DNA from: Spirochaetae bacterium HGW-Spirochaetae-1 | GTDB taxonomy: Bacteria; Spirochaetota; UBA4802; UBA5550 | Length of the DNA stretch: 64,000 nt | NCBI GenBank assembly: GCA_002839375.1 | Contig: PGXY01000001.1 | Span: 1-64,000, forward strand | Direction: 5' to 3' | Shown here: positions 49,608 to 51,399 of the stretch, one piece after another | Layout of the letters: each line of letters opens with the position of its first letter | Numbering within the stretch: the first letter of the stretch is position 1 | Program-made: the position numbers and the translations under genes | Notes under the pieces: model-generated | The model's input: only the letters and a program-made list of their open reading frames with translations | Told to the model about the DNA's origin: nothing | The model's database searches: none

Positions 49608-49688
49608 CATTTCTTTTTAAAATCCGATTAAGAATTAGTATTGAATAATCTTGACCTGCATAGCAAGCCCTGCTAAAGAGGAGTATAA

Positions 49689-50231
49689 ATGACTTTAAAT
49701 GAGGTAACTATCATGGACATGTACCTGCCAACGTTTTATTCTCTGAGCGATTTTTTCAGACGGTTTCTCGGCCTTTTCAGCGGGCCCTTATTTCTTTCAG
49801 CTTTCAGGGGAATCGATCCGGTATTCAGGGAAAAACTCCTTTTGACCGTTTCTATGACCAATAATTGTGCCGGTTGAGTATCGGCACATTCTGCCGTGGG
49901 CAGAAAAGCGGGCATAACAAAGGATGAATATCTCTCGCTTATAAAACTGGATAAGAAGGATTTTCCCTTCCGGGAATGGGTGGCCCTTGTCTATGCGCGA
50001 GAATGGACCTTTGAAAGAGGAAATGATCCCCATGGAGAATACGGTGAGGAATTCGCGAGGCACTTTTCGAAGAAGGAACGGGCACGCATTAAAAAACTGT
50101 TACGCATGATGCTCTTTGCCAATTATTGCGGAAACGGATTTTTTAAAGTGCCCTGGAGGGGACAGAACGAACCGCAGGTCTGTGATATATCGCGGGAACA
50201 ACCGGGAAAGGAAAGTAGTGATGAAGAATGA
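49689..50231 (+). CDS. AhpD-like (carboxymuconolactone decarboxylase) protein with in-frame TGA, probable selenoprotein
   Basis: Reading through the TGA at 49875-49877 gives 180 residues; both halves lie in one frame. The join reads TVSMTNNCAG, then the TGA codon, then VSAHSAVGRKAG. That is CxxUxxxH (Cys60, Sec63, His67), exactly the AhpD/CMD redox motif CxxCxxxH with Sec for the second Cys. The downstream half continues as the family does (GITKDEYLSLI... FPFREWVALVYAREWTFERG). AGAGGAG lies five bases before the ATG. Other genes here use TGA as stop. Alternative: a nonsense mutation. Confidence 0.8.
49889..49905 (+). promoter_or_regulatory. SECIS-like hairpin after the in-frame TGA
   Basis: Perfect 7-bp stem ttctgcc (49889-49895) with ggcagaa (49899-49905) and a GTG loop. 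The loop begins 18 nt after the TGA and has G first, within the spacing (about 16-37 nt) and loop rule generally given for bacterial SECIS elements. Confidence 0.65.
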
Positions 50232-51399
50232 TTTTGATTCTGTAATATCCCGCCGGGGTACCGCTTCAGTCAAATGGGACATGGCTGACAGCATTTACGG
50301 TACCGGGGATATCCTCCCTCTCTGGGTTGCCGATATGGATTTTCCCGTTCCCGCAGCGGTGCAGGAAGCGGTGATGAAAAGAGCCGCTCATGGCATATAC
50401 GGATATTCGGCCGTTATGCCGTCCTGTTATGAGTCGATCATTACATGGTTGCGCGAGCGGCATGACTGGAATGTGGAAAGGGAATGGCTGGTAATCACGC
50501 CCGGTGTTGTTCCCGCCATCAATATGATGATACAGGAGTTTTCCCGGCAGGGGGACGGTGTCATCATACAGGAGCCGGTCTATTATCCCTTCCGGAACGC
50601 CGTGCTGAACAATAACCGGACCCTGGTGAACAATCCTCTTCGTCTGGATAAAGGAAGATATGTCATGGATCTCCGGGATCTCGAAGAAAAGATAGGCCGG
50701 GAAGGGGCGGCCATGATGATACTCTGCAGCCCCCATAACCCCGTGGGTCGTGTATGGACCCGGCAGGAGCTTGATGATCTTTCCGCTCTCTGCAACGCCA
50801 ATAATATCCTTGTCGTCTCCGATGAGATACATTCCGATCTGGTATTCAGCGGTAAGAAACACTTCCCCTATACCGCCCTGTCCGGTGAAAGCAACATTCG
50901 GTCCATTGTCTGCCATGCCCCCAGTAAGACGTTCAATATGCCGGGGCTCCAGGTTTCCTATGCGGTTATTCCCGACAGCGATCTGCGGAAGCAGTTCAGG
51001 CGGCGCCTTGCCATGAACGGAATTTTTCTTTCCAATACATTCGGTCCCCTGGCCATGGAAGCGGCCTACCAGTGCGGAATGGAATGGCTTGATGAGGTTA
51101 TGACTTACATTGAAGAAAATTTTCGTTATCTCAGCCGTTTTATGAAGGAGAAGCTTCCCTCTGTAACTATTATCGAGCCCGATGCCACATACCTGGTCTG
51201 GATGGATTTTAGGGCCCTTGGTCTGGATCGTGATTCTTTAAGAATTTTACTAAGGCAGAAGGCAGGCGTAGCTCTTGACGAGGGTGATATTTTTGGCGAA
51301 GGTGGAGAGGGCTTTGTGCGTATTAATATTGCCTGTCCACGTTCAATTCTCGCCGAGGCGCTGCAGCGTATCGAATCGGCCCTGAACAGAGAGCAATAA
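50221..51399 (+). CDS. MalY/PatB-type PLP-dependent C-S lyase/aminotransferase
   Basis: 392 residues from ATG 50221, with AAAGGAAAG upstream. Fold type I PLP enzyme: opening DFDSVISRRGTASVKWD and LPLWVADMDFPVP typical of MalY/PatB, CSPHNPVGRVW, VVSDEIHSDLVF, and the PLP Lys in APSKTFNMPGLQ. The group splits cystathionine or cysteine to pyruvate, ammonia and a thiol (beta-lyase). Overlaps the end of the AhpD-like gene by 11 bases, so co-translated. Confidence 0.92.
   Translation: MKNDFDSVISRRGTASVKWDMADSIYGTGDILPLWVADMDFPVPAAVQEAVMKRAAHGIYGYSAVMPSCYESIITWLRERHDWNVEREWLVITPGVVPAINMMIQEFSRQGDGVIIQEPVYYPFRNAVLNNNRTLVNNPLRLDKGRYVMDLRDLEEKIGREGAAMMILCSPHNPVGRVWTRQELDDLSALCNANNILVVSDEIHSDLVFSGKKHFPYTALSGESNIRSIVCHAPSKTFNMPGLQVSYAVIPDSDLRKQFRRRLAMNGIFLSNTFGPLAMEAAYQCGMEWLDEVMTYIEENFRYLSRFMKEKLPSVTIIEPDATYLVWMDFRALGLDRDSLRILLRQKAGVALDEGDIFGEGGEGFVRINIACPRSILAEALQRIESALNREQ

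Follow-up and report, generated by a model that had tools for sequence, protein, structure and literature searches.

The window, by which we mean the whole stretch of DNA analysed, comprises 64,000 nucleotides of Spirochaetae bacterium HGW-Spirochaetae-1 (contig PGXY01000001.1, forward strand). It contains an AhpD/CMD-like gene interrupted by an in-frame TGA and followed by an overlapping aminotransferase gene, with these features:

49678-49683, + strand: GAGGAG, a Shine-Dalgarno-like motif by its sequence, 5 nt upstream of ATG 49689
49689-50231, + strand: predicted AhpD/CMD-like selenoprotein gene, 180 aa with Sec63; 16 orthologues, PF02627 and TIGR00778
49713, + strand: alternative start ATG (Met9), from comparison with the N-terminus of the nearest orthologue
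49830-49889, + strand: predicted catalytic core E48-x11-C60-x2-U63-x3-H67, invariant across 16/16 orthologues
49875-49877, + strand: TGA at the second position of CxxC, predicted to be read as selenocysteine; TGA in 16/16 orthologues, Cys in paralogues
49889-49905, + strand: SECIS-like hairpin TTCTGCC-GTG-GGCAGAA, 7 bp with a 3-nt loop, G first, the loop 18 nt after the TGA
50181-50183, + strand: Cys165, a third cysteine in the C-terminal tail; some tail Cys in 16/16 orthologues
50221-51399, + strand: class I/II aminotransferase (PF00155, 149 bits; MalY/PatB-like by eye)

The frame that runs from ATG 49689 to the terminal TGA at 50229-50231 has TGA 49875-49877, codon 63, as its sole in-frame interruption, and readthrough of this codon fuses 62 and 117 codons into an AhpD/CMD-like protein of 180 residues. 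The first-pass annotation had described the two flanking frames as continuous and together full-length, a description borne out by the readthrough frame, which scores 36.4 bits on TIGR00778, the AhpD core domain (cut-off 27.8), and 35.3 bits on PF02627, the Pfam CMD family (cut-off 23). Both models are also matched by all 16 orthologues (E up to 0.1), and the gene is the one CMD-domain match found in the host genome. Translation may instead begin at the in-frame ATG 49713, the codon with which the N-terminus of the closest orthologue aligns. Around codon 63 the translation reads N-C-A-G-U-V-S-A-H, the TGA occupying the second Cys of E-x11-C-x2-C-x3-H. Nine further TGA read-through frames within the window were judged by eye, and none was selenoprotein-like.

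The aminotransferase gene has its ATG within the final codons of the selenoprotein gene, and this 11-nt overlap suggests translational coupling in the host genome. The aminotransferase adjoins the gene in the host and is absent beside the orthologues in the other carriers examined. Neighbourhoods differ between genera and are conserved among close relatives only, so that they do not indicate a partner or pathway; an operon-based function was considered and dropped, as no shared neighbourhood was found beyond close relatives. Downstream of the nearest orthologue, at a distance of ~0.5 kb, lie genes for a glutaredoxin and the catalytic chain of a ferredoxin-thioredoxin reductase (L087, 4112-4743), which offer a lead to the reductant.

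Orthologues were found in 16 of the 46 genomes of the order, the host included, the other members being 41-60% identical to the window protein and spread over many genera. Each contains a single internal TGA, located in 16/16 at the same aligned codon, and E48, C60, U63 and H67 are invariant throughout. A profile search of 393 Spirochaetota genomes returned the 16 orthologues at 210-253 bits, with the next match, at 68 bits, being free of stops; no Cys version of the subfamily was found in these genomes. The lower-scoring paralogues examined carry E-x11-C-x2-C-x3-H, with Cys where the orthologues have TGA, which upholds the earlier placement of the TGA exactly at the second Cys of CxxCxxxH and answers the question of whether homologues carry Cys or TGA at this codon. 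In a maximum-likelihood tree, one branch separates the Sec set from the Cys set with 100/100 support, and there are no decayed copies. A single-sequence search of genome contigs recovered the nearest relative only, the nearest named relative being the Spirochaetae metagenome-assembled genome HGW-Spirochaetae-5. Viral contigs and phages gave zero matches, and a plasmid search yielded one distant CMD protein (34% identity).

As signs against a selenoprotein, the first-pass annotation had named a plain stop with a decayed second half in close relatives and a loss of codon conservation after the TGA. The second half proved to be conserved in all 16 orthologues, and pN was well below pS on both sides of the TGA in every comparison (after the TGA, pN 0.10-0.47 and pS 0.27-0.99). 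For close pairs, the region after the TGA gave dN values of 0.10-0.27 against dS values of 0.33-1.27. These sequence comparisons indicate that purifying selection is acting before as well as after the TGA.

The host genome (5.2 Mb in 14 contigs, 96% complete) was searched for sel genes, and tRNA-Sec, selA, selB and selD each scored above the curated cut-off. The tRNA-Sec with anticodon UCA (72.1 bits, cut-off 47), selA (494.6 bits, cut-off 267.9) and selB (312.3 bits, cut-off 242.3) lie side by side at C1:263.6-266 kb, and selD (L018, G000:C1:297760-298683) scored 366 bits (cut-off 125). Because host selD has a single in-frame TGA at its active-site position (context SG-U-ASK), the selenophosphate synthetase SelD is probably itself a selenoprotein. 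Among the carrier genomes, selA is present in 15/16, the lone exception (G039) being 69% complete; in G042 the selA gene (C59:16968-18549) falls into three pieces in different frames, probably through assembly frameshifts. The host also contains two formate-dehydrogenase-like molybdopterin oxidoreductase genes (L103 and L106, on G000:C5 and C9) with an in-frame TGA as U-H-S, in the contexts RLUHSS and RIUHSA. Both have a nearly identical hairpin of the GTCGCC-GGTCT-GGCGGC type, its loop starting 18 nt after the TGA.

The window gene shows the same loop spacing as these TGA-containing genes of the host. Its 5′ stem, TTCTGCC, occupies 49889-49895 and begins 11 nt past the TGA, and the loop GTG occupies 49896-49898; of the hairpin first reported, the 7 bp and the G-first loop are confirmed, and the start at 18 nt after the TGA applies to the loop and not to the stem. 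Taken by itself, the window hairpin stands out only marginally, being matched in stability by 24 of 500 synonymous shuffles. Across the family, hairpins are more stable than synonymous shuffles (500 per gene), with a Stouffer combined z of about -4.3 that is somewhat inflated because the genes tested are related. The window's 7-bp register is paired in 73% of alignment cells and drifts between genomes, which fits a loose bacterial SECIS that doubles as coding sequence. RNAalifold, applied to the aligned stretch 3′ of the TGA, gave a consensus of 3 pairs only, and the case for a SECIS therefore draws on single-sequence stability relative to synonymous shuffles and not on covariation. Three orthologues (L029, L032, L033) are without a clear simple hairpin by the rule applied, and Rfam contains no element that matches the hairpin site. 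The hairpin is weaker evidence than the conservation of the codon.

The AlphaFold2 model of the protein is helical, with residues 10-159 confident and an overall pLDDT of 84. Its best structural matches are to the Pseudomonas AhpD PA0269 (PDB codes 7xw1, Z = 16.6, and 2o4d, Z = 15.9, by VIA; Foldseek probability 1.00), followed by other peroxidase-related CMD proteins, in a Foldseek/VIA list that supports the AhpD fold only and from which absences are uninformative. The proton relay of the M. tuberculosis AhpD consists of Glu118, Cys130, Cys133 and His137 (PMC3141380), to which E48, C60, U63 and H67 correspond with equal spacing. From these catalytic residues and the modelled fold, we infer that the protein functions as a selenol/thiol peroxidase or as a disulfide-exchange enzyme.

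Within this range, there is a substantial minority chance that the selenoprotein is no peroxidase at all and performs disulfide or selenenylsulfide exchange, or reductive dehalogenation, as other CMD-fold enzymes do. The fold is common to the debrominase Bmp8 (6ohi/6ohj, Z = 12.8; 25.6 bits by sequence), the nearest relative has its two reductant-type genes close by, and a peroxiredoxin-type gene (PF10417) elsewhere in the host genome makes an AhpC-reducing adaptor role possible. Against this, the AhpD relay is fully conserved and the top structural match, PA0269, has been described as a weak peroxidase (PMC3141380).

Stopping at the TGA and restarting at an internal start such as GTG 49896 would instead produce two proteins, an arrangement that the presence of this codon inside the window gene permits and that we nevertheless regard as very improbable. 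The GTG is not conserved, constraint extends over the stretch that separates the TGA from any internal start, and H67, an invariant active-site residue, lies 4 codons past the TGA; the catalytic relay would thus be divided between the two halves. Still less credible is a pseudogene or sequencing error in which the TGA terminates translation and the second half decays. Standard annotation would place the stop there, and GTG 49896 is an ordinary start that opens a downstream ORF of 111 aa, but the shared TGA and conserved second half of 16 diverged orthologues, and a well-supported Sec clade free of decayed copies, speak against decay. That UGA is read as Trp or another amino acid, through an altered genetic code or general readthrough, is just as implausible: no supporting points were found for recoding as Trp, TGA terminates ordinary host genes and the selenoprotein gene itself, the paralogues examined have Cys, not Trp, at the aligned position, and the host has a complete Sec system. 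Pseudogene, sequencing error and Trp recoding are effectively excluded.

The gene is best explained as a whole, and with high confidence, as encoding a selenoprotein, an AhpD/CMD-fold redox enzyme with SelB-dependent decoding at the TGA. The evidence for Sec decoding is comparative, and the redox role follows from the fold and the residues. The original proposal of a selenoprotein and not a pseudogene is thus supported by the Sec machinery, the TGA in 16/16 orthologues and the purifying selection before and after that codon. In the proposed mechanism, SelB and Sec-tRNA(UCA) would decode UGA 49875-49877 as selenocysteine, aided by the hairpin just downstream, to give an all-helical AhpD/CMD-fold enzyme of 172-180 residues in which Sec63 replaces the second Cys of the AhpD CxxC within the E-x11-C-x2-U-x3-H relay. 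Most likely, the selenol would attack the substrate, a peroxide or a disulfide, and be resolved by Cys60 as a selenenylsulfide. A thioredoxin- or glutaredoxin-type reductant may receive electrons from the tail Cys; the model leaves the tail disordered, so that a redox role for this residue is a guess.

AhpD-like CxxU selenoproteins had been said to be already reported, and this is correct: a 2005 paper on the Sargasso Sea metagenome (PMC1088965) described AhpD-family and CMD-family members, and a 2026 review lists CxxU AhpD/CMD selenoproteins under several models (PMC13188914). The Sargasso AhpD-like (COG2128/TIGR01926) and CMD-like (PF02627) proteins share with the window protein an AhpD/CMD domain, CxxU and a downstream SECIS-like hairpin. 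The window subfamily differs in its conservation within Spirochaetota, in the ~100 residues that follow CxxU and in the tail Cys, and the window protein reaches 12.1 bits on TIGR01926 (peroxidase-related enzyme; cut-off 81.8). The GSU3128 family (seleno)protein NF041047, a 'distant AhpD homolog', likewise has CxxU and an AhpD-type core, but its model covers just 84 positions and the window protein scores 18.8 bits against it (cut-off 110). The YciW-related (seleno)protein NF053654 is the nearest curated seleno-family, since each of the 16 orthologues gives a weak match to it (best E 1.6e-8); the score of the window protein is 15.9 bits (cut-off 310), and a literature search on a YciW-related selenoprotein turned up no paper. 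AhpD of M. tuberculosis and PA0269 of P. aeruginosa resemble the window protein in their helical fold and in the spacing of their E/C/C/H proton relay, but both carry Cys in place of Sec, and identity to the window protein is 24-26% for PA0269 and ~8%, by structure, for the M. tuberculosis enzyme.

None of the curated NCBIfam seleno-AhpD models tested (NF041047, NF053654, TIGR01926) was matched at its cut-off, and because the scores lie far below these values the orthologues form a new subfamily within the known CxxU AhpD/CMD selenoproteins, to which the four Sargasso 'CMD-like' sequences may or may not belong. A bolder version, which we hold to be rather doubtful, would make this an undescribed family of one Spirochaetota order, Sec-only in the sampled genomes and lacking a Cys orthologue, whose members are selenol peroxidases with a third redox Cys on a mobile tail that passes electrons on to a glutaredoxin/ferredoxin-thioredoxin reductase system.

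On the comparative evidence, a gene that appears broken by a stop almost certainly yields a full-length AhpD-like redox enzyme with an active-site selenocysteine. The absence of a Cys orthologue from the 393 genomes suggests that Sec is important for its function. Routine annotation would split such genes or label them pseudogenes, and their recognition adds a conserved selenoprotein subfamily for uncultivated Spirochaetota.
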